Below are positions 50,859 through 62,117 of a stretch of DNA of 64,000 bases, one piece after another. Location of the stretch: positions 372,001 to 436,000 of the forward strand of contig JAHCHE010000001.1 in NCBI GenBank assembly GCA_026129905.1, written 5' to 3'. Each line of letters begins with the position of its first letter. Position 1 is the stretch's first letter. A program made the translations under genes and the position numbers. The notes under the pieces are model-generated. The model searched no databases. It saw only the letters and a list, made by a program, of their open reading frames with translations, and was not told the DNA's origin. Source of the stretch: Bryobacteraceae bacterium (GTDB lineage Bacteria; Acidobacteriota; Terriglobia; Bryobacterales; Bryobacteraceae).

Positions 50859-51722
50859 CTACGCGCGTATCCGCCGCATCGCTTTCAGACAGCGTTCGAC
50901 GGTTTCCATCGGCGGGTAGGCGGACCCTTCCTGCTCAATGAAGTAGTACTCGATGCCTCCGACGCTTTCGGCCACGTCGAAGATCTCCTTCCACTTCGCC
51001 GCTCCCTCGCCGAGCAGCACCTCAAAGCCCTTGCTGGGATCGGGCGACCAGTCCTTGACGTGCATGCTGGCGGTGCGGCCCGGGTACTTCTTCATGAACG
51101 CGATGGGGTCCGCTCCGACGCTGAGCGCCGCGCCGACGTCGAGCTGCAGAATTACGTCTTTTGACGTGTCTTGGCCGAGGATATCCATCGGAATTTTCCC
51201 GTCGACGGGCTTGAATTCCTCGCCGTGATTGTGGAATCCTGTTCGCATTCCGTGCGGTTTGAAGCGCTCGGAGGCCTGGTTCAGCTTCTCCGCCACTTCG
51301 TGCCAGCCCTTCGCGGTTGTCACGCGGCCGGCGCTCGCAAGGATCACGTGCTTGCTGCCGAGGGCCTGGTTGAGTTCCACCGTGCGCGAGAGGTTCTCCG
51401 GCAGCAGCGCCTTGTCGCTGTTGTGCGTGCTGACGCAGCGGATCTTCACCTCGTCCATCGTCTTGCGGAGTAGCCGCGCCTGCTCCGGCGTGTAGTCGAA
51501 GTATATGGAGTAGTTCTCCACCACCTCGTAGCCGATCTTCGCCACCTGCCGGACCGCGTCGTTCACGTCCTTCTTTACGTGATCCCTGACCGAATACAGT
51601 TCCAATCCGATCGGCACATGCTTTCGCGCCGCTCGCAGCATGCGGGGCAGACCCGCTGCCGCCGAGGCGCCGAGCGCCAGAAACGCGCGCCGGGATGGAA
51701 TGTCAGGTTCCGTTTGTCTCAT
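50859..51722 (-). CDS. Exported sugar phosphate isomerase/epimerase-like TIM-barrel protein
   Basis: The 287-residue protein has a Tat-type N-terminus (SRRAFLALGASAAAGLP) and a xylose-isomerase-like TIM barrel: PIGLELYSVRDHVKKD, YEVVENYSIYFDY, GMRTGFHNHGEEF with metal-binding His/Glu, LDVGAALSVGADPI and the closing YYFIEQEGSAYPP. Relatives act on sugars and inositols, often next to Gfo/Idh oxidoreductases (here 45488 is 4 kb away). The ribosome site AGGAG precedes ATG 51722, so the longer frame to 51863 is rejected. Confidence 0.88.
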   Translation of the reverse strand: MRQTEPDIPSRRAFLALGASAAAGLPRMLRAARKHVPIGLELYSVRDHVKKDVNDAVRQVAKIGYEVVENYSIYFDYTPEQARLLRKTMDEVKIRCVSTHNSDKALLPENLSRTVELNQALGSKHVILASAGRVTTAKGWHEVAEKLNQASERFKPHGMRTGFHNHGEEFKPVDGKIPMDILGQDTSKDVILQLDVGAALSVGADPIAFMKKYPGRTASMHVKDWSPDPSKGFEVLLGEGAAKWKEIFDVAESVGGIEYYFIEQEGSAYPPMETVERCLKAMRRIRA

Positions 51723-51803: not shown

Positions 51804-51819
51804 TGTGACCACGGTCACA
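51804..51819. promoter_or_regulatory. CRP/FNR-family operator upstream of the molybdoenzyme operon
   Basis: TGTGACCACGGTCACA is a perfect inverted repeat (7-base arms, 2-base centre) and fits the CRP consensus TGTGA-N6-TCACA at all ten fixed positions. It is centred 50 bases before ATG 51862. A TTACAC at 51841-51846 could be the -10; the start site would then be about 51853 and the operator centre at about -41.5, the class II activator position. The regulator gene is not in the window. The 139-base gap divides this unit from the divergent TIM-barrel gene. Confidence 0.65.
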
Positions 51820-51861
51820 GCGCCGGAAGGCTCTCGAACGTTACACAAGGGATGTACAGCC

Positions 51862-53748
51862 ATGGACCAGTCCTTCGCGGTTCGCTATGCCGTAACCATC
51901 GCGGACGAGGAATACTGGCGGCGTCAGATCAAGTGCCAGTACGCTTGCCCGGTGCACACCGACGCGCGCGGTTACGTGCGGGCCATCGCCGAGGGCGACT
52001 ACGAGCGGGCGTACCGAATTGCGCGCGGCCCCAACCCCCTGGCCAGCATCTGCGGCCGCGTCTGCGGGGCGCCCTGCGAGGCGGCTTGCCGCCGCGGCGC
52101 CATCGACCAGCCGATCGCCATCCGCGCGTTGAAACGGTTCGTAACGGACCAATTTGGCGGCCGCCCGGCATCGCCGGCTTCCTTCCCGTCGGGCGAGTGC
52201 GACGGGCTCGAGGAGATGACGCACCTGGCTCGCTATCTTGCTTCGCGCGAATACAAGGCGCCGGAAGGCGAGCGCGTGGCTATCATAGGCTCGGGCCCCG
52301 CCGGTCTGGCTGCCGCGCACGACCTGGCGCTCCTCGGCTTTCGTCCCGTGGTTTTCGAGATGGAGCCGAAACCGGCCGGCATGCTCTACACCGGCATTCC
52401 CGCCTACCGGCTGCCGCGCGATCTGATCGACGCCGAGATTGAGTTGATCCGGTCGCTGGGCGTCGAGTTCCGCTGCGGCGTCCAGATCGGCCGCGACGTG
52501 CCGTTTGACGACCTGCGCCGCGACTACCGCGCGGTGATCGTCGCTGTGGGGGCCAAGCGCGCACGCATGCTCACGCTGCCTGGCTCGGACGCCGAGGGCG
52601 TTTACGGCGGCGTGGACTTCCTGCGAGCCGCCGCGCTCGGCGAGCCGTTCCCGATCGGCCGGCGCGTGATCGTCATCGGCGGGGGCAACGTCGCGTATGA
52701 CGTTTCGCGTTCCGCCGTCCGATACCTTTCCGGCGAGGAAGAGGATCCGCAGCGGCTGGTGGACTGGCAGACCCAGTCCGACATTTCGCGCCTGGCGGTG
52801 CGGCAACCGTCGGTGCGGCAGGTACACCTTGTCTGTCTCGAATCCCGCGCAGAGATGCCCGCCGACGAGATCGAGATCGTTGAGGGCGAGGAAGAAGGCA
52901 TCCGCCGGCACAACCGGCTCGGTCCCAAGGAGTTCCTGTGGCGCCAGGACAACGGGGAGAAGAAGCTGACCGGCGTGCGGTTCCGCCGCGCGCTCCGCGT
53001 CTTCGACGAGAATCGCCGGTTCTCGCCGGTTTACGACGACGCGGATACGGTGGACATCGAAGCCGACACCGTGCTGCTTTCGGTCGGCCAGATGCCGGAC
53101 CTGAGTTTCCTGGGTGGCGCGGCTCGCCTGCCGGTAAACCCGGAGACGCTGGAGACCGGCATGGAGGGCGTGTTCGCTGCGGGCGACGTGGCCTATGGCG
53201 CGAAGCTGATGATCGACGCCATCGCCAGCGGGAAGAAGGCCGCGCGTTCCGTCTATCGTTACCTTACCGGGAGCGAAATCCAGCCGCGGGAATCGCAGTT
53301 CCACTTCGAGATTGACAGCTACCGGCGCGAGCGCGGCTACGAAGGCCGGGGACGGCAGCGTATTCCCGTCGCGAGCGTCCAGGAACGCCTGGCCGATCCG
53401 CGGCGGCTGGTGGAAACCGGCTACACCGAAACCGGGGCGCAACGCGAAGCCGGGCGGTGCCTCGACTGCGGCGTCAACACCATTTTCGACGGCGAGAAGT
53501 GCATTCTCTGCGGCGGCTGTGTGGACGTCTGCCCGACGCTGTGCCTGAAACTGGTCGGCGTCGAGCAACTCGAGCCCGCCGCCGAACTGCGCGCTCTGCT
53601 CGATGCGCACGCGGCCGGCGAAAGCTGGTCCGCCATCGTCAAGGACGAGGAGCGCTGCATCCGCTGCGCGCTCTGCGCCGAGCGCTGTCCCACCCGCGCC
53701 ATCACCATGGAGCGTTTTCAATTCAGCCAGGAGTGGCAACATGCATGA
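51862..53748 (+). CDS. GltD-like FAD oxidoreductase with C-terminal 2[4Fe-4S] ferredoxin domain
   Basis: The 628-residue protein begins with the Cys-rich [4Fe-4S] domain of glutamate synthase small subunits (CQYACPVHTDARGYV; ICGRVCGAPCEAACRRG). An FAD domain follows (IIGSGPAGLAAAHDLALLGF, about 140), then an NAD(P) domain (VIVIGGGNVAYDVSRSA, about 268) and a bacterial-type ferredoxin (CILCGGCVDVCP; CIRCALCAERCP, about 600). It has no membrane segment. As first gene of the operon it probably exchanges electrons between NAD(P)H or ferredoxin and the membrane complex; direction and partner are inferred. ATG 51862 is favoured over 51805, which would include the operator. It overlaps the Rieske gene by eight bases. 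Confidence 0.88.
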   Translation: MDQSFAVRYAVTIADEEYWRRQIKCQYACPVHTDARGYVRAIAEGDYERAYRIARGPNPLASICGRVCGAPCEAACRRGAIDQPIAIRALKRFVTDQFGGRPASPASFPSGECDGLEEMTHLARYLASREYKAPEGERVAIIGSGPAGLAAAHDLALLGFRPVVFEMEPKPAGMLYTGIPAYRLPRDLIDAEIELIRSLGVEFRCGVQIGRDVPFDDLRRDYRAVIVAVGAKRARMLTLPGSDAEGVYGGVDFLRAAALGEPFPIGRRVIVIGGGNVAYDVSRSAVRYLSGEEEDPQRLVDWQTQSDISRLAVRQPSVRQVHLVCLESRAEMPADEIEIVEGEEEGIRRHNRLGPKEFLWRQDNGEKKLTGVRFRRALRVFDENRRFSPVYDDADTVDIEADTVLLSVGQMPDLSFLGGAARLPVNPETLETGMEGVFAAGDVAYGAKLMIDAIASGKKAARSVYRYLTGSEIQPRESQFHFEIDSYRRERGYEGRGRQRIPVASVQERLADPRRLVETGYTETGAQREAGRCLDCGVNTIFDGEKCILCGGCVDVCPTLCLKLVGVEQLEPAAELRALLDAHAAGESWSAIVKDEERCIRCALCAERCPTRAITMERFQFSQEWQHA

Positions 53749-54199
53749 ACAGGAAACCAAGCGAAGAGATGTTCTGGGCCTCGCCGCATTGTGGAGTTTC
53801 GTTTCCGCGATCGGAGTAGCATTGGCGGGCGTCGCGCGGCTGCCCAAGCCCGCTGTTCTGCCCGGCCCGCTGCGCGTGTTCAAGCTGGGCGACCCGGCGC
53901 AGTTCGCGGTCGGCTCGGTGGCGCGCATCGACGAGGGCAATTTCTTTCTGTTCCGCGGCGAGCGCGGATTCCACGCCATCTCGTCCGTGTGCACGCACCT
54001 GGGCTGCATCGTGGCGCATACGGAAGACGAAGGCTTCTCCTGCCCGTGCCACGGCTCCCGCTTCACGGCCGACGGCGCGGTGATCGCCGGTCCGGCGCCG
54101 TCCGCGCTGCCGTGGCTGGAACTCGCGCTGGCGCCCGACGGGCAGTTGCAGGTGAACGCGGAAAGTCATGTGCCGAAAGGCGCCTATTTCCAGGTCTGA
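53741..54199 (+). CDS. Rieske [2Fe-2S] protein of a bc-type complex
   Basis: The 152-residue protein has a Tat-type anchor (TKRRDVLGLAALWSFVSAIGVAL) and a Rieske domain with both cluster boxes: CTHLGC (84-89) and CPCHGS (101-106). Ligands are C84, H86, C101 and H104; C89 and C103 form the disulfide. It should oxidise quinol at the Qo site of the cytochrome b encoded next, on the outer face of the membrane. Three bases separate it from the cytochrome b gene. Confidence 0.94.
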   Translation: MHEQETKRRDVLGLAALWSFVSAIGVALAGVARLPKPAVLPGPLRVFKLGDPAQFAVGSVARIDEGNFFLFRGERGFHAISSVCTHLGCIVAHTEDEGFSCPCHGSRFTADGAVIAGPAPSALPWLELALAPDGQLQVNAESHVPKGAYFQV

Positions 54200-54202
54200 G
54201 CC

Positions 54203-55732
54203 ATGCCGCCGACAAAAGAATTTCTCGAGAATTTAAAGAAAACGCCGGAGCGGCTGCGCGAGTCCGCCTTGCGCGTCGGCAAACTCCCGGAGACGGACCG
54301 CGAACGCTCCCAAAGCACGTTCCACAACCTGTTCCTGCACGTGCAGAGCGTCCGCACGCACCGCAATTCGTTGCGCTTCGCCTATACGTTCGGCCTGGGG
54401 CTGATTCTCACCGCGTCCTTCGTGGTGCTCACCATCACCGGCATCCTGGTGATGGTCTACTACAAGCCTTCCACCGACCTCGCCTACCAGTCGGTGAAAG
54501 ACATTCACTTCGTCGTCCCGGCAGGCCGCTTCATTCGCAATATTCACCGCTGGGCCGCGCACGTCATGGTAGTCGCCGTCTTCCTCCACATGGCCCGCGT
54601 GTTCTACACCGGCTCGTACAAGAAGCCGCGCGAATTCAACTGGCTCGTCGGCCTCGCGCTGCTGGTGCTGACGCTCGCGCTGAGCTTCACAGGATACCTG
54701 CTGCCGTGGGATCAGCTCGCGTTCTGGGCCGTCACCATCGGCGCCAACATCGCCAGTTCCCCCCGCGAGGTGACCGAGGCGCTCGGCATCACCAGGTGGT
54801 TCGACATCGGCGCATTCCAGAAACAACTGCTGCTCGGCGCAAATCACGTCGGTCAGGAAGCGCTTATCCGCTTCTACGTGCTGCACGTCGCGGTGTTGCC
54901 GCTGTTGACTGCCATCCTGATGGGCGTCCACTTCTGGCGCGTGCGCAAGGATGGCGGCCTGTCGCGCGACGTGACGGCCGAGCCGCCGCCTGCCCTCATC
55001 CGCGGCAGGGAGGTTCAAGTCTTTCCCCCAACCAAGACCTACGGCTTGATGGCCGTGGTGCGGGGGCGAACGCCGGTGGTGGGACGGGCGCCGGAAGGCA
55101 GCGTCCCCAGTTGGCCGCACCTGCTTTGGGCGGAATTGGCCGTCTTCGCGTTCACTATCGCCCTGACGCTGGCGCTCGGCTACTGGTTCGACGCGCCGCT
55201 GAAAGAGATGGCGAACCCCGCGATCCCGGAGAATCCGGCGAAGGCGCCTTGGTACTTCCTGGGGCTTCAGGAACTGGTGTCGTATTCGGCATTCATGGGC
55301 GGCGTCGCCATTCCAATGATCGTGCTCATCGGTCTGGGGCTCATCCCGTATCTCGACCGGGATCCGCGAGGCGTCGGCAAGTGGTTCGGTGGTCCCGAAG
55401 GACGCCGGATTTTCTGGGTCTCGCTCGTCGTCGGGCTGATCAGCGTTGTCGCCCTGCTGGCGTTCACGGTTCAGTTCGGCTGGCTGCGGAACTGGTTTCC
55501 GTCCATCGCGCAACTGGCGATCATCGCGCTGAATCCGGGAACGGTGATCGTCGCCATCTACGTGGCGTGGTCGCTCTGGACGCTCCACCGCACCGGCTCC
55601 ATCCGCATGTCGGCCATCGCGTTGTTCACCTGCTTCCTCGCCGGCTTCATCGTGCTCACCGCGATGGGCTCGGTTTTCCGCGGTCCCAACTGGCAGTTCT
55701 ACTGGTGGCCCAGCCAGTGGCCCGTCCATTGA
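54203..55732 (+). CDS. Cytochrome b of a bc-type quinol oxidase module
   Basis: The 509-residue protein contains both cytochrome b halves in one chain. The N-terminal part holds the heme ligand segments HRWAAHVMVVAVFLHMARVF and, later, HVAVLPLLTAILMGVHFWR. The C-terminal part has the Qo-site motif as APWYFLGLQE, in place of PEWY. An N-terminal extension of about 55 residues is soluble. Eight or more helices are predicted. With the Rieske and multiheme cytochrome it forms a menaquinol-oxidising bc complex of the non-proteobacterial type. Confidence 0.93.
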   Translation: MPPTKEFLENLKKTPERLRESALRVGKLPETDRERSQSTFHNLFLHVQSVRTHRNSLRFAYTFGLGLILTASFVVLTITGILVMVYYKPSTDLAYQSVKDIHFVVPAGRFIRNIHRWAAHVMVVAVFLHMARVFYTGSYKKPREFNWLVGLALLVLTLALSFTGYLLPWDQLAFWAVTIGANIASSPREVTEALGITRWFDIGAFQKQLLLGANHVGQEALIRFYVLHVAVLPLLTAILMGVHFWRVRKDGGLSRDVTAEPPPALIRGREVQVFPPTKTYGLMAVVRGRTPVVGRAPEGSVPSWPHLLWAELAVFAFTIALTLALGYWFDAPLKEMANPAIPENPAKAPWYFLGLQELVSYSAFMGGVAIPMIVLIGLGLIPYLDRDPRGVGKWFGGPEGRRIFWVSLVVGLISVVALLAFTVQFGWLRNWFPSIAQLAIIALNPGTVIVAIYVAWSLWTLHRTGSIRMSAIALFTCFLAGFIVLTAMGSVFRGPNWQFYWWPSQWPVH

Positions 55733-55743
55733 AGGAGGATCGG

Positions 55744-57180
55744 ATGAAGCTTTCGCCAGACCCGTCACGAATCTTCAAGTGGGCGACCCTCGCCTTCAGC
55801 GCGATCTCCCTCGCCTTTCTCGTCGCGGCGGCGATCCGCGAAAACATCGCCGCCGATTGGCGCGATCATCAGCTTGCGTACAGGACGATTCTCGAGAGCA
55901 AAGCGAACGACGCCGGGCGCGCCGCCGCGAGGACGTTTCCCATCGAGATCCGGCAGGTTTCCGTGCCGGCTCTCGGTGCCGTCGACCGCTGCGTTACTTG
56001 TCACGCCGGCATCGACGATCCTCGCATGGCGGACCAGGCGAATCCTCACAAAACGCACCCGAAGCGGCTGCTGGAGATTCACCGGGTCGAGAAGTTCGGC
56101 TGCACGATCTGCCACCAGGGACAGGGCGCCGCCTTGAATTTCGATGAAGCCAAAGCCGAGAACTTCTACTGGGATTATCCGCTGCTGCCCGCTTCGCTCA
56201 CCGAGGCCACGTGCAATTCGTGTCACGATCCCCGAGCGTTGCCCGACGGCTCGGCCCCCAAGCTGGCTTGGGGCCTGCGCCTGTTCGCTGAAAAGGGCTG
56301 CGGCGGATGTCACAAACTCGGCGGCAAGGGCGGCTCGCTCGGTCCGGCGCTCGATAACGTCGGCCTGAAGACGAAACACGAATTCGTGCGCGCGCATCTG
56401 AAAGGATCGCAGACCACCTGGAACTGGCACGAGCGGCACTTCCGCGATCCCGGCGGGCTCGTGCCTGGGTCTCTCATGCCCGCGCCGGCGCTCACCCCGG
56501 CCGAGACGGAGGCGCTGACGGTGTATATGCTCTCGTTGCGCCGCGGCGAAATCCATTCCGACTACCTGGCGCCCGACAAGATCGAAGAGAAGTACGCCCG
56601 GCTCCATCCGCCGCCGGCGGACGGCGAGGCGCTGTACCAACGGTTCTGCTCCGCCTGTCACGACACGGGAATGCACGCGCGCTGGGACCGGAAGTTCGCC
56701 CGTTTCGTGCCCGCCATACGAAACCGCGCGTATATCGAAACGGAAGACGACGAGTGTCTGGCCGAGAACATCCGTGAAGGGCGGCCGGGTACCCGCATGC
56801 CGGGGTGGGGGCAGAAGGCCGGCGGTTTGAGCGAGGGTGAAGTCGACGCGCTGGTCGCCTATCTACGCAGGAGCGCTCCGCCGATGGAGTTGCCGCCCGC
56901 GCCGCAGCGCGGTTCGATTGCCCGGGGCGGCGAACTCTTCAACCGGCAGTGCGCGGGATGTCATGGCGTCGACGGCAAGGGTCCCATCGCGCCGGCGCTC
57001 GCGAATCCCGTGTTCCAGCGCGCCGCGACCGACGCCTTTATCGCACAGACCATCCGCGCGGGGCGCGATCGGACGCCGATGCCCGCCTTCGGCCGGGCCG
57101 GTTTCGGCGACGGCGAAATCGCCGATGTGCTTGCTTACGTTCGCCAGTGGGCGCCCGCCGGCGGGAGGTCAACGCAATGA
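55744..57180 (+). CDS. Membrane-anchored hexaheme cytochrome c
   Basis: The 478-residue protein has one N-terminal transmembrane helix (about 13-31) and six CxxCH heme motifs: CVTCH 83, CTICH 120, CNSCH 157, CGGCH 186, CSACH 302 and CAGCH 403. The first three lie in a compact multiheme part; the last three belong to cytochrome-c-like domains (GELFNRQCAGCHGVDGKG; MPAFGRAGFGDGEI). It takes the place of cytochrome c1 and probably links the bc module to the molybdoenzyme or a soluble carrier. The strong GGAGG precedes ATG 55744, and the stop overlaps the next ATG by four bases. The open frame extends back to 53791 but is a shadow there. Confidence 0.93.
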   Translation: MKLSPDPSRIFKWATLAFSAISLAFLVAAAIRENIAADWRDHQLAYRTILESKANDAGRAAARTFPIEIRQVSVPALGAVDRCVTCHAGIDDPRMADQANPHKTHPKRLLEIHRVEKFGCTICHQGQGAALNFDEAKAENFYWDYPLLPASLTEATCNSCHDPRALPDGSAPKLAWGLRLFAEKGCGGCHKLGGKGGSLGPALDNVGLKTKHEFVRAHLKGSQTTWNWHERHFRDPGGLVPGSLMPAPALTPAETEALTVYMLSLRRGEIHSDYLAPDKIEEKYARLHPPPADGEALYQRFCSACHDTGMHARWDRKFARFVPAIRNRAYIETEDDECLAENIREGRPGTRMPGWGQKAGGLSEGEVDALVAYLRRSAPPMELPPAPQRGSIARGGELFNRQCAGCHGVDGKGPIAPALANPVFQRAATDAFIAQTIRAGRDRTPMPAFGRAGFGDGEIADVLAYVRQWAPAGGRSTQ

Positions 57181-59930
57181 ATCACCGACGCCACTTCTTA
57201 AAACTCGCGGGGCTCGCCGCTCTTGGCGCAGCCGTTCCGGGCTGCCGCAAGGCGGAGAAACCCGCGCTGGAGAGTTTCACGGGAACATTCGATCCGCTGC
57301 GGGTCTATCCGTACCGTTCCTGGGAGGACCTGTACCGGAAGCAGTGGACATGGGACAAGGTAGTGCGCTCGACGCACTCGGCCAATTGCACCGGCTCGTG
57401 CAGTTGGCTGGTGTACGTGCGCGACGGCGTCATGATTCGCGAGGAGCAGGCCGCCGATTACCCGCGCATCTCGCAGGACCTGCCGGACTACAACCCGCGC
57501 GGCTGTCAGAAAGGCGCCTGCTTCGTCGAGTACGTTTACGGCCCGCAGCGGCTCCGCTCGCCGCTGATCCGCGCCGGCGAGCGCGGCGAAGGCAAGTGGC
57601 GCAAGGCCACCTGGGACGAGGCCCTCACGCTGATCGCCGAAAAGCTGCTCGACAACATCTATAATTACGGACCCGATACGAACACCTATTTCAGCGTCAT
57701 TCCGGCCATGAGCCCCGTCTCGTTCTGCGCCGGGTCCCGCTTCGCCCACTACACCGGCGGCGTTTTCTGTTCGTTCTACGACTGGTACTGCGACCTGCCG
57801 CCGGGCGAGCCTCTCACCTGGGGCGTGCAGACCGAAGCCTGCGAGTGCGCCGACTGGTTCAACGCCAAGTACATCGTGCTGTGGGGCAGCAACATTTCAC
57901 AGACCCGTATTCCGGACGCGCATTTCGCTTTCGAGGCGCGCTACAACGGGGCGAAGCTGGTCTGCATCTCGCCGGATTTCAACTCCAGCTCCATTCACGC
58001 CGACCTGTTCCTTCAGATCAACCCCGGCACGGACGGCGCCCTGGCGCTCGGCGTGGCGCGACACATCATCGATAACAAGCTCTACGACGAGCCCTACGTG
58101 AAGGAGCAGACAGACCTGCCGTTGCTGGTGGATCGGAAGACCGGGCGCTTTCTCCGAGCGGACGGGACCGAAGACGTCTTCCTGCTCTTCGACCGCAAAA
58201 CCGGCCGGCGCATGGAGGCGCCGGGTTCGATGGGCTCGAAGCAGAAAACCATCGCCCTCGGGGCCCTCGATCCCGATCTTCACTACTCGGACGGCGACGT
58301 CACTACCGTCTTCGAACTGCTGCGGGAGTCGCTGAAGCCCTACGATCTTCCTTCGGTGGCGCGGACTACCGGTCTTGCGTTGAACGACATCGAGCGCTTC
58401 GCGCAGGAGATGGGCGTCCGGCGTCCGGCCATGATTATTCACGGCGCGGGCCTGAACCACTGGTTCCACAACGACCTAATCAACCGGGCGCTCATCCTGC
58501 TGGTGGCTCTCACCGGCAACGTTGGGAAAAACGGCGGCGGGTTCAATCATTACGTCGGGCAGGAGCGCATCTGGCCCGAGCACGGTTTCAAGATGTACGC
58601 GTTTCCGGAAGGCGCGAAAAAGCAGCGCTTCCAAAACACCACGCTCTGGACCTACGCCCACTCCTCCAACAAAGACAGGCATCTTTACAACGGAAAGCCG
58701 ATCGAGTGGTACATCGAGGAAAGCATCAAGAACGGCTGGATGCCGCTCTATCCGAAGAACCGCGCCCAAAAGCCGCGCGCGATGATCGTGTGGCGGGCCA
58801 ACTACCTGAACCAGGCCAAAGGCCACGAGCACGTCCGCGATTCCCTCTGGAAGGACCTCGACCTGATTGTCGACATCAACTACCGGATGGACACGACGGC
58901 GCTCTATTCCGACGTGGTGCTGCCCGCGGCGTCCTACTACGAGAAGTCCGATATCAACTCGACCGACTGCCACAGCTACATCCATCCGTTCAACAAGGTG
59001 CTCGATCCGCTCTACGATTCGAAGCCCGATTGGGAGGTGTTTCGCGAGTTGGCGCGGAAAATGTCGGAGGTCGCGGCGGCCAAAAAACTACCGTTTTTCG
59101 AGGATCGAGACCTGGAATGGACGCGCGATTTCACGAAAACGTACGACCTGTGGTCCGGCAATGGCCAGTTCCAATCGCCGGAGGACGGCGCCAACTTCAT
59201 CATGTCCCACTCGCCGGAAACCGACGGCCTCACGTTCGCGGACCTTCAACAGCACCCGCAGCGATTCCGCAAGATCGACGAGGAGGCCTGGAACAGCGAC
59301 ATCAAGCCGGGCGTCGCCTACACCCCGTTCCAGCACCAGCTCGAGAAGAAACGCCCCTGGCGCACGTTGACAGGACGGCAGCAGTTCTATATCGATCATC
59401 CCTGGTTCCTCGAGTTCGGTGAGCAGTTGCCCGTCTATAAAGAACCGCTCCCGGAAGGCGGAAAGCATCCGTTTTTCTGGAACACGCCGCACGGGCGGTG
59501 GTCGATTCACTCCACGTGGCGGGACGCGCGCTACCAGTTGCGGCTGCAACGCGGCGTTCCGATCGCCTACATCCACCCGGACGACGCCAAGGAGAAAGGA
59601 ATCGCCGACAACGACTGGGTCCGGATCTTCAACGACGAGGGCGCCATGGTGTGCAAGGCGCAGATTCTGCCGGGCGAGAAACGGAAGCGCCTCACGATGT
59701 ACCACGGCTGGGAACGGTACCTCGGGTTCCTCCAGGGTAGCTGGCAGTCTCCCACCTACATCAAAATCAAGCCGACGCAACTGGTGGGCAAGTACGGCCA
59801 CATTAATTTCCGATTGAACTATTGGGGTCCTACCGGAAATAATCGCGATATTCGCGTCGATATCGTCAAATACACTCCCACGGCCGCCGATTTGCGGCCG
59901 ATCCGGAGGGCCGGAAAGGAAAAGGCGTAA
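57177..59930 (+). CDS. Periplasmic molybdopterin oxidoreductase alpha subunit, NarG-type (type II DMSO reductase family)
   Basis: The 917-residue catalytic subunit binds Mo-bisMGD and one [4Fe-4S] cluster (H67, C71, C75, C110; HX3CX3CX34C) as NarG-type enzymes do. The Asp Mo ligand is expected at D202 in YDWYCDLPPGEP, and VLWGSNISQTRIPDAHF is a family motif. The N-terminus has a twin-Arg motif (RRHFLK) and a lipobox (AAVPGC, C23), so it should be an exported lipoprotein, unlike cytoplasmic NarG. It is shorter than NarG (about 1,240). Nitrate, nitrite, chlorate, selenate or an organic compound are all possible substrates. ATG 57177 overlaps the cytochrome gene by four bases. Confidence 0.93.
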   Translation: MNHRRHFLKLAGLAALGAAVPGCRKAEKPALESFTGTFDPLRVYPYRSWEDLYRKQWTWDKVVRSTHSANCTGSCSWLVYVRDGVMIREEQAADYPRISQDLPDYNPRGCQKGACFVEYVYGPQRLRSPLIRAGERGEGKWRKATWDEALTLIAEKLLDNIYNYGPDTNTYFSVIPAMSPVSFCAGSRFAHYTGGVFCSFYDWYCDLPPGEPLTWGVQTEACECADWFNAKYIVLWGSNISQTRIPDAHFAFEARYNGAKLVCISPDFNSSSIHADLFLQINPGTDGALALGVARHIIDNKLYDEPYVKEQTDLPLLVDRKTGRFLRADGTEDVFLLFDRKTGRRMEAPGSMGSKQKTIALGALDPDLHYSDGDVTTVFELLRESLKPYDLPSVARTTGLALNDIERFAQEMGVRRPAMIIHGAGLNHWFHNDLINRALILLVALTGNVGKNGGGFNHYVGQERIWPEHGFKMYAFPEGAKKQRFQNTTLWTYAHSSNKDRHLYNGKPIEWYIEESIKNGWMPLYPKNRAQKPRAMIVWRANYLNQAKGHEHVRDSLWKDLDLIVDINYRMDTTALYSDVVLPAASYYEKSDINSTDCHSYIHPFNKVLDPLYDSKPDWEVFRELARKMSEVAAAKKLPFFEDRDLEWTRDFTKTYDLWSGNGQFQSPEDGANFIMSHSPETDGLTFADLQQHPQRFRKIDEEAWNSDIKPGVAYTPFQHQLEKKRPWRTLTGRQQFYIDHPWFLEFGEQLPVYKEPLPEGGKHPFFWNTPHGRWSIHSTWRDARYQLRLQRGVPIAYIHPDDAKEKGIADNDWVRIFNDEGAMVCKAQILPGEKRKRLTMYHGWERYLGFLQGSWQSPTYIKIKPTQLVGKYGHINFRLNYWGPTGNNRDIRVDIVKYTPTAADLRPIRRAGKEKA

Positions 59931-59935
59931 CCGTC

Positions 59936-60952
59936 ATGCCGCTCCACCAGATCGCGATGGTTCTCGACCTCAACAAATGCCTCGGCTGCCAGACATGCAC
60001 GATGGCCTGCAAGAAGCTATGGACCGACGGCGACGGCATGGACTACATGTACTGGAACAACGTCGAAACCCGTCCCGGCCAAGGCTATCCGCGCAACTGG
60101 GACCGGATCGGCGGTGGCTTCGAGAACGGCATGCTGCGGCCGAGCGAGTTGCCGTCGAAGCTCGATTACGGCCAGACGTTCGAGTACAACTATGAGGAGC
60201 GGCTGTTCCAGGGCGGGCTCCAGGCGATGCCGCAAGAGGAGACGCGCAACACGCCGAATTGGGATGAGGACGTGGGCGCTCTCATGGCGGGCGAGAACTA
60301 CTACTTCTACCTGCCCCGGCTCTGCAACCATTGCACGAATCCTGCCTGCCTGGCGGCCTGTCCGCGCAACGCCATCTACAAGCGCGAGGAGGACGGCATC
60401 GTGCTGGTGGACCAGGAGCGGTGCGAAGGATACCGCTACTGCATGCGGGCCTGTCCGTACAAGAAGATCTACTACAACGAACTGCTCGGCAAGGCGCAGA
60501 AGTGCATCTTCTGCTATCCGCGCATCGAGCAGGGCGACACCACCGCCTGCTCGAAGCAGTGTCCCGGCCGCCTGCGTTTCGTCGGCTTCCTCGACGATGA
60601 GAGTTCGGCCGTGCACAGCCTGGTGAAGGTCCATCGCGTCGCGCTGGGGCTGTTCCCGGAGAAAGGCACGGATCCGAACGTCTTCTACGTGCCGCCCTTC
60701 AATCCGCCGCGGCGGGGCAACTATGGCAAGAGCGTTCTGGAAGACGCCCGCATGCCGCTGGATTACCTGGTTTACCTATTCGGACAGGAAGTGATCGACG
60801 TGATTCGGAGACTGGAACTGGAACTCGAAAAAGCCCAGAACGGCGGCGTCAGCGACGTGCTGCAGCTTCTGATCGGGCGCGATGCCGAGGTCCGCTACCA
60901 GATCCCGAAGCGCGACCAATTGGTGCAGATCGGGGGAATCGGAAAAGCATGA
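59936..60952 (+). CDS. Four-cluster iron-sulfur beta subunit (NarH/SerB/DdhB type)
   Basis: The 338-residue protein carries four ferredoxin-type Cys groups: C15, C18, C21, C25; C130, C133, C138, C142; C163, C169, C173; and C190, C193, C205, C209. In the third group Y166 takes the place of the second Cys, which marks a [3Fe-4S] cluster as in NarH. It has no signal peptide and should be exported folded together with the alpha subunit through the Tat system. It passes electrons between the gamma heme and the alpha subunit. Confidence 0.94.
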   Translation: MPLHQIAMVLDLNKCLGCQTCTMACKKLWTDGDGMDYMYWNNVETRPGQGYPRNWDRIGGGFENGMLRPSELPSKLDYGQTFEYNYEERLFQGGLQAMPQEETRNTPNWDEDVGALMAGENYYFYLPRLCNHCTNPACLAACPRNAIYKREEDGIVLVDQERCEGYRYCMRACPYKKIYYNELLGKAQKCIFCYPRIEQGDTTACSKQCPGRLRFVGFLDDESSAVHSLVKVHRVALGLFPEKGTDPNVFYVPPFNPPRRGNYGKSVLEDARMPLDYLVYLFGQEVIDVIRRLELELEKAQNGGVSDVLQLLIGRDAEVRYQIPKRDQLVQIGGIGKA

Positions 60953-61632
60953 AACGCAGTCTGGCGCTCCTGTTCTTCGCGGCCGCCCTGTCGGCCGAGA
61001 TGCCGAGCATACCGTCAACCGCCGCGGCCCCGGACGACGCGCTGGATCCGGCCTCCACGGGTTGGAAGACCGCGAGGGCCGTCTCACTCGCGCTGCACCG
61101 GACGCCTCCGCTGTATGCCACCGACGCGCCGGCGGCTCGCGAGATTGACTCGGTTCAAGTTCAACTTCTGCGCGGCGCTTCCGCCGTTTTCGTGCGGCTG
61201 GAATGGGCGGACCCGACCCGCGACGAGGTCTCGCTCCCGGGTCAGGAGAAAACATGGGTGACCGAGAAACTGGTGACGCCCTCCGAGGCGACGGACCGGT
61301 TCTCCGACAGCGTGGCGGTTATGATTCCAGCCGAACCCGGCGCCGACGTCTATCCGTCGTTGCAGATGGGCGATCGGGACCGGCCCGTGCGGATCTATTT
61401 CGTCAGCGCGACGCGCGGGGCCGCGGTGATGGAAGCCACGGGCCGAGGAACGACCCACCGCACCGGCGAGCGTTTCCCGGCCCGGCTCGGCTACGCCGCC
61501 GGTAAGTGGGCGGCCACCATGCAACTGCAGAACCTGCCCGCCGGCGCGCCGCTCTCGTTCGCCGTCTGGAACGGCAGCCAGCAGGACCGCGACGGCAGAA
61601 AGTATTTCACGGTATGGTACACGACGGAGTAA
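60949..61632 (+). CDS. Heme-b gamma subunit (EbdC/DdhC/SerC-like)
   Basis: The 227-residue protein has a signal peptide (about 1-16) and matches the ethylbenzene-dehydrogenase-type heme b domain. M140 in PSLQMGD and K218 near the end (DGRKYFTVWY) are the probable axial heme ligands, as in EbdC. It is a soluble periplasmic subunit, which confirms the outer-face location of the enzyme. ATG 60949 overlaps the beta-subunit stop by four bases. A gamma of this type excludes a NarI-like membrane gamma. Confidence 0.88.
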   Translation: MKRSLALLFFAAALSAEMPSIPSTAAAPDDALDPASTGWKTARAVSLALHRTPPLYATDAPAAREIDSVQVQLLRGASAVFVRLEWADPTRDEVSLPGQEKTWVTEKLVTPSEATDRFSDSVAVMIPAEPGADVYPSLQMGDRDRPVRIYFVSATRGAAVMEATGRGTTHRTGERFPARLGYAAGKWAATMQLQNLPAGAPLSFAVWNGSQQDRDGRKYFTVWYTTE

Positions 61633-62117
61633 ACCTCTGGGCCACGTTCCGGTACGCGCTTTCCTATCCGGACGAAAGCCGGCTCGAAGGCTTCCGGCCG
61701 CTGCTAGCCGGCGTGCCGCCGACGCTCGAAGAGTTGCGCGTGCTCTACGTCCGCTTGTTTGAGGCGGGCGCGCCGCACCCGGCCTGTCCGTTGCTGGAAA
61801 GTTTCTATGTCCCCGGCCGGCCGCCCGGCGACATCGTGCTCGAAAACAAGCTGTTCTACAAGCACTTTGGCTTGAGTATCCAGTCGAACGCCGCGCCGGA
61901 TCATCTGCTGACGCAACTGGAATTCCTGGCCTGGCTGGACTACTGCGCGGCATCGGGCAACGAAGGCGTCGAGGCCCTCGCCGCCGCGCGCGCCGACTAC
62001 ATCCAAAGGCATCTCGCGCACCTGCCGGCCGCCGCCCGGCGCGCGCGGGCAGCCGGCGGGGATTGCTACGCGCAGATCCTGGACTCGCTTTGCGAAGCGG
62101 CCGCCGGCCGCGCTTAG
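61614..62117 (+). CDS. TorD/NarJ-like molybdoenzyme maturation chaperone
   Basis: The 167-residue, all-helical, Cys-poor protein has the TorD/DmsD-family pattern: FRYALSYPDESRLEGFRPLL, LRVLYVRLFEAGAPHPACPLLESFY and an acidic-aromatic middle. Such chaperones bind the alpha subunit before Mo cofactor insertion and Tat export. ATG 61614 lies inside the gamma gene by 19 bases; the longer frame to 61506 is a shadow of gamma. It is the last gene of the operon. No terminator is visible before the convergent kinase gene at 62164. Confidence 0.85.
   Translation: MVHDGVNLWATFRYALSYPDESRLEGFRPLLAGVPPTLEELRVLYVRLFEAGAPHPACPLLESFYVPGRPPGDIVLENKLFYKHFGLSIQSNAAPDHLLTQLEFLAWLDYCAASGNEGVEALAAARADYIQRHLAHLPAAARRARAAGGDCYAQILDSLCEAAAGRA

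Follow-up and report, generated by a model that had tools for sequence, protein, structure and literature searches.

A conserved CRP/FNR-type palindrome before a molybdoenzyme gene cluster of a Bryobacteraceae bacterium and its probable place in a nitrogen-oxide regulon

What controls a molybdoenzyme gene cluster whose first gene is preceded by a perfect palindrome of the kind bound by CRP/FNR-family proteins? The question arises from a 64-kb stretch of the genome of a Bryobacteraceae bacterium, referred to here as the window, in which a preliminary description had reported an exact TGTGA-N6-TCACA sequence. That sequence is present where it was reported, is the sole exact copy within the window, and has no counterpart in 100 dinucleotide shuffles of the window. 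Its 7-bp arms (TGTGACC/GGTCACA) enclose a centre of two bases. It is intergenic, lying in a divergent 139-bp region between an ATG at 51722 on the minus strand and an ATG at 51862 on the plus strand, both assigned as gene starts by eye. The palindrome ends 42 bp before the plus-strand ATG, where an eight-gene cluster begins, and is about 80 bases from the start of the epimerase-like gene on the other strand. The order of the eight genes suggests that they form an operon. The features of the locus are as follows.

50859 to 51722, minus strand: divergent TIM-barrel epimerase-like gene
51804 to 51819, no strand assigned: CRP/FNR-type palindrome TGTGACCACGGTCACA, from pattern counts and an invariant block in the upstream alignment
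51805 to 51818, no strand assigned: core GTGAC-N4-GTCAC of the palindrome
51862 to 53748, plus strand: GltD-like FAD/NAD(P) oxidoreductase carrying 4Fe-4S clusters (gene 1 of the eight)
53603 to 54199, plus strand: Rieske iron-sulfur protein (start uncertain)
54203 to 55732, plus strand: cytochrome b/b6-type protein
55729 to 57180, plus strand: multihaem cytochrome c (start approximate)
57177 to 59930, plus strand: molybdoenzyme of DMSO reductase family type II, closest to PcrA among solved structures
59936 to 60952, plus strand: iron-sulfur beta subunit, slightly under the TIGR03478 cut-off
60949 to 61632, plus strand: haem b gamma subunit (EB_dh type)
61506 to 62117, plus strand: NarJ/TorD-type chaperone (start uncertain)

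The search for further copies that the preliminary description had proposed was carried out on the whole genome (G000, 8.57 Mb, 98% complete), which holds TGTGA-N6-TCACA at two places, with one for a reversed-pattern control, and GTGAC-N4-GTCAC at 13 places, with three for its reversed control. Scanning the window, together with about 109 kb from elsewhere in the genome, with a weight matrix gave nothing above 11.5 bits beyond the known sites, the lowest training score being 17.3 and the reversed control yielding one match. The other exact copy (G000:C4:137612, around 1501–1516 of locus L002) has CATAAT at offset 23 and is flanked by a MobB-MobA-like fusion gene and a methyltransferase gene, both named by eye.

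Conservation ties the palindrome to the gene cluster. Eleven orthologous clusters were compared, namely that of the window, nine named loci (L005–L013) and L094 in genome G105, with first proteins 74–78% identical to that of the window. The core GTGAC-N4-GTCAC occurs shortly upstream of the first gene in nine of the 11; it was not found at L012, where only 270 contig bases precede the match, or at L094, and the two genomes concerned (G105 and G238) both encode the candidate regulator described below. When the nine upstream regions are aligned, the half-sites GTGAC and GGTCAC make up 11 of the 15 invariant columns, while the regions otherwise align poorly (mean column identity 49%). The gene order of the cluster is kept in the orthologues as far as their contigs extend, whereas a tblastn search of 10 orthologous loci gave no match to the divergent epimerase-like gene; the palindrome therefore most likely belongs to the plus-strand operon. 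Inspection by eye showed no -10 element at the class II offset on the side of the divergent gene. Of 71 more distant homologues fetched, 41 were examined, and their upstream sequences lack the motif. A second family of homologues of the first protein (L096–L114, 56–60% identity) occurs in many Bryobacterales, and ten of its upstream regions, reverse-oriented ones being left out and L103 having almost no upstream sequence, contain no palindrome.

The molybdoenzyme passes the TIGR03479 cut-off and, among solved structures, matches PcrA best (903 bits, with 543 for NarG). A Tat signal read by eye predicts its export. One Glu residue aligns, by hand count, with Glu461 of entry 5e7o, a Trp461Glu variant, and the gate of the enzyme would thus be of the nitrate rather than the perchlorate type. 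Together with the content of the regulon, this residue points to nitrate rather than perchlorate as the likely substrate. The cluster probably encodes a nitrate-type reductase of the periplasm that a Rieske/cytochrome b/cytochrome c chain would supply with electrons. The nearest named relatives are found in metagenome-assembled genomes of Bryobacterales/Solibacteraceae and other Acidobacteria.

The genes that share the palindrome indicate the kind of regulon to which the operon may belong. Across the 11 cluster-bearing genomes, GTGAC-N4-GTCAC occurs at 109 places, which a simple codon-usage gene caller divides into 51 intergenic and 58 intragenic. Recognised neighbours account for 34 of the intergenic sites: the operon itself (nine), RIC/ScdA-like genes (eight), NapH-like ferredoxin genes (six), hemerythrin genes (five), DUF6448 genes (two), and one each of DUF438, radical SAM, multihaem cytochrome and NrfH genes. 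The other 17 lie beside genes of other kinds (for instance one for a TetR protein, two for cupins and one for a methyltransferase) or have no neighbour recognised as of nitrogen-oxide type. These names were assigned by eye except for proteins scanned against family models, of which RIC (TIGR03652) and NrfH (TIGR03153) exceeded their cut-offs near sites in the window's genome, as did hemerythrin, a NorB domain and DUF438 near sites in its relatives; the NapH/MauN resemblance stayed under its cut-off. Three of the 13 sites in the window's genome lie within 40 kb of one another on contig C4, in the company of NarGHJI, NarK, hemerythrin and RIC genes recognised by eye. On this best reading of the neighbouring genes, the co-targets would place the molybdoenzyme operon in a regulon for nitrogen oxides and nitric oxide (NO), which sharpens the earlier suggestion of anaerobic or nutrient-dependent control.

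The wider C4 island (G000:C4:100001–170000, covering L128–L131) contains, as judged by eye, NarGHJI, NarK, alternative complex III, RIC, several hemerythrin-like and Rrf2-type genes, and a second MGD oxidoreductase. DUF6448-type proteins (HCDGMDGPVV...) recur near palindromes or in this nitrate island (L147 1563–2171, L247, G000:C4:112605 and 121646), the family scan for them covering L147 only.

The preliminary description had also assigned the palindrome to a class II position. A class II activator site is centred at -41.5 from the transcription start, and from the palindrome centre at 51811.5 this spacing puts +1 at 51853, with the following features around it.

51841 to 51846, plus strand: weak candidate -10 hexamer TTACAC, at the offset where related promoters have xAnnnT
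51847 to 51852, plus strand: Shine-Dalgarno-like AAGGGA, read from the sequence, upstream of the predicted +1
51853, plus strand: putative transcription start, assuming a palindrome centre at -41.5, from the regulon-wide spacing

TTACAC matches TATAAT at only two of six positions and lacks both A2 and T6, and a sigma-70 scan found no promoter. A start at 51853 would give the operon a leader of about 9 nt, leaving AAGGGA outside an mRNA that would be nearly leaderless. The loss of this element from the mRNA initially cast doubt on the -41.5 spacing, a doubt that was reversed by the spacing observed over the regulon as a whole. Among the 62 orientations of sites in the 11 genomes that have a called gene start 20–300 bases away, xAnnnT stands at offset 23 in 30 and at any other offset (8 to 43) in no more than nine; TAnnnT stands at offset 23 in 17 cases and at other offsets in three at most. 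The same offset carries xAnnnT in only three of 40 gene-less orientations and four of 116 at intragenic sites, and the largest count at any offset in 2,000 shuffles was 12. With the palindrome centred at -41.5, offset 23 corresponds to a hexamer spanning -12 to -7. The leaders predicted in this way are 0–15 nt long for 31 of 50 called regulon genes, and 2–4 nt for seven of the eight other operon rows, the called start at L161 falling before +1. Three of the 30 offset-23 hexamers (L163+, L245+ and L260+) point away from the operon, and the one at the NrfH site points to the divergent gene. Only L211 among the nine operon rows has xAnnnT at this offset; in the remaining rows near-matches occur, for example TATTAA or TAACTA at 23, TATCAA at 24 or TATTAT at 21. 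The arithmetic behind the class II proposal is correct and the regulon agrees with it, but the operon's own -10 is poor and the site fails TAnnnT.

In four orthologues (L007, L008, L010 and L011), the palindrome is preceded, at a distance of a few bases, by a conserved element (TGATATT...TATACT), a possible second, upstream promoter. A TATACT box in this position means that the site could be an operator near a transcription start, and the same CRP/FNR protein might then act as a repressor that blocks a promoter upstream of the palindrome and leaves a leader with a usable Shine-Dalgarno sequence. AAGGGA would indeed lie within the mRNA only if the leader were longer. However, the window has no TATACT box, and the regulon-wide -10 lies downstream of the palindrome at the spacing of an activator site, so that repression is an unlikely, if coherent, account of the site.

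Combining the palindrome with its promoter spacing gave a test over the whole order. The palindrome followed by 22 bases and TANNNT has 231 matches in 257 genomes, compared with eight for the reversed pattern. Two of these are in the window's genome (C1:289420 and C6:109342); the window's own site is not among the 231, its hexamer failing TAnnnT. Without the C/G adjoining the half-sites, a hand count over the same 257 genomes gave 105 matches as against 80 for the control, which indicates that the C/G is needed, and generic TGTGA-N6-TCACA was dropped as the motif. At 30 composite loci that were examined, NO reductase-like genes lie downstream at L290, L292, L294 and L297, RIC-like genes at L275, L276, L282 and L298, and NapH-like genes at eight loci; four have no called downstream gene and the site at L277 is intragenic. 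Family scans of the composite loci covered L271, L274 and L292, and the protein at L274 had no match.

The distribution of the composite site largely follows that of one protein. A homologue of the candidate regulator occurs in 134 of the 257 genomes and in all 11 that bear the cluster, that in G199 being only 48% identical. The 134 genomes contain 201 of the 231 composite sites, with at least one in 103 of them, while the 123 genomes without a regulator match contain 30, with at least one in 20 (Fisher p 2e-23, a value that, like all counts here, carries no correction for phylogeny). The regulator match has a composite site no more than 56 bp away in at least 18 genomes, and in at least 15 of these the two share a strand. 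The general proposal of CRP/FNR-type control of the molybdoenzyme is thus supported by nine of 11 orthologues, by the -10 spacing over the regulon and by co-occurrence with the regulator.

A search of the window's genome for CRP/FNR-type genes, also suggested in the preliminary description, returned one protein with a CRP-type helix-turn-helix (HTH). This protein of 226 amino acids, encoded on contig C42, is the only one of seven cNMP-domain proteins to have such a motif (PF13545, 9.7e-20, the sole protein in the genome over the cut-off). The other six (G000:C45:189762, C4:143824, C13:91160, C13:130705, C34:129869 and C45:168474), one of which is encoded in the nitrate island, were set aside as candidates after no CRP-type HTH was read in them, and a weak HTH match at L004 was rejected as a GntR/MocR-like frame, judged by eye, with no CRP-type HTH. 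No NCBIfam equivalog exceeded its cut-off for the regulator. Its predicted structure has the CRP/FNR fold (mean pLDDT 89.9, pTM 0.66), with GlxR, the CRP of Mycobacterium tuberculosis, Thermus 4ev0, DNR and HcpR among its neighbours; the search supports the fold and does not separate CRP, DNR and HcpR. Among 31 aligned homologues C48 and C117 do not vary, while H176 is kept in 29. In the recognition helix, GTVREVVSR, the residues R, E and R are the same in all 31, and a published recognition code ties R180 to G3 and E181 to A6 of the site (PMC1274295), from which G3 and A6 of TGTGA are predicted.

The TGTGA-N6-TCACA sequence fits the consensus of E. coli CRP, in which the pair of residues that contacts cAMP is Arg-Ser. 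A classical cAMP-CRP site under carbon-source control would also suit the best sequence and fold neighbours of the regulator, which include cAMP-binding CRPs. At the place of the Arg-Ser pair, aligned by eye, the regulator nevertheless has Pro94-Ala95, invariant in 31 of 31 aligned homologues, and the recognised co-targets are nitrogen-oxide genes, which makes cAMP-dependent control improbable. As the best reading of its sequence, the regulator would be an HcpR/DNR-like, cAMP-independent protein.

Rex, a repressor that senses NADH/NAD+, recognises the nearly identical consensus TTGTGA-N6-TCACAA, and a Rex operator would befit a redox-related operon. In Desulfovibrio, according to one study, Rex and HcpR1 share identical binding sites (PMC5701242). 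The Rex DNA-binding domain PF06971 was not found in the window's genome at E 0.001, while it is present in seven of 14 control genomes; with no Rex gene found, co-targets that appear to be NO genes and a -41.5 spacing that suits an activator, this explanation is largely refuted and its probability very small. A chance palindrome or terminator-like hairpin without regulatory role, to which a terminator-like match overlapping the palindrome on the minus strand (one found, 0.3 expected in shuffles) and the intragenic location of about half of the GTGAC-N4-GTCAC places might point, is scarcely credible given that nine of the 11 orthologues have the palindrome and that its spacing to the promoter is fixed.

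The palindrome is probably a class II operator of the genome's CRP/FNR factor, which would make the operon a member of an NO/nitrogen-oxide regulon. A dimer of the regulator is predicted to bind TGTGAC-N4-GTCACA, with the site centred at -41.5, and to help RNA polymerase, in the manner of a class II activator, to use a promoter whose -10 is poor and whose -35 is not recognisable. This factor would also control genes for the repair protein RIC and for hemerythrins, NO reductase, NrfH and NapH-like proteins across the order. The operon of the window would accordingly be switched on by NO or nitrogen oxides.

Regulons of this kind, in which a CRP/FNR protein governs NO-related genes, are known systems; in the open-access literature searched no description of one was found for the Acidobacteriota, which are abundant soil bacteria. 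The palindrome supplies an operator of defined sequence together with a candidate regulator and target list, and it ties an uncharacterised molybdoenzyme chain to nitrogen-oxide physiology, narrowing its likely substrate. A more far-reaching reading, offered tentatively and with slightly less than even confidence, is that an undescribed NO-responsive CRP/FNR lineage (operator TGTGAC-N4-GTCACA, the regulator lying directly beside RIC genes in some genomes) governs a new, near-leaderless PcrA/NarG-related nitrate-type module, consisting of the periplasmic reductase, its own Rieske/cytochrome b/cytochrome c complex and the GltD-like flavoprotein.

Among known systems, HcpR1 of Desulfovibrio desulfuricans, a member of the CRP/FNR family, resembles the present one in its operator consensus, its R/E/R helix and its link to nitrate and NO; it binds TGTGA-N6-TCACA, and roles in nitrate and NO responses have been proposed for it (PMC5701242). 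The Desulfovibrio HcpR consensus is given elsewhere as wTGTGAnnnnnnTCACAw (PMC1274295). The Bryobacteraceae regulator belongs to another phylum, its likeness to HcpR1 lies in the operator and the helix residues, and its putative sites require the C/G beside TGTGA/TCACA; the targets recognised here are RIC, NO reductase and the PcrA-like cluster. DNR of Pseudomonas aeruginosa, an NO-responsive FNR-like activator that binds haem, is alike in its CRP/FNR fold (Foldseek TM 0.64 over 217 columns, 28% identity in the structural alignment). Its targets, like the apparent ones here, concern denitrification and NO, whereas its site is TTGAT-N4-ATCAA (PMC1274295). E. coli CRP at class II promoters provides the geometry proposed here, with a site centred at -41.5, but the cAMP-contacting Arg-Ser is not kept in the present regulator and the regulon differs. 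The DNA-contact residues of E. coli CRP, given as 180, 181 and 185 in the same source (PMC1274295), match R, E and R here by eye. Compared with PcrA and NarG, enzymes of DMSO reductase type II, the molybdoenzyme is set apart by a gene order that includes Rieske, cytochrome b and GltD-like proteins.
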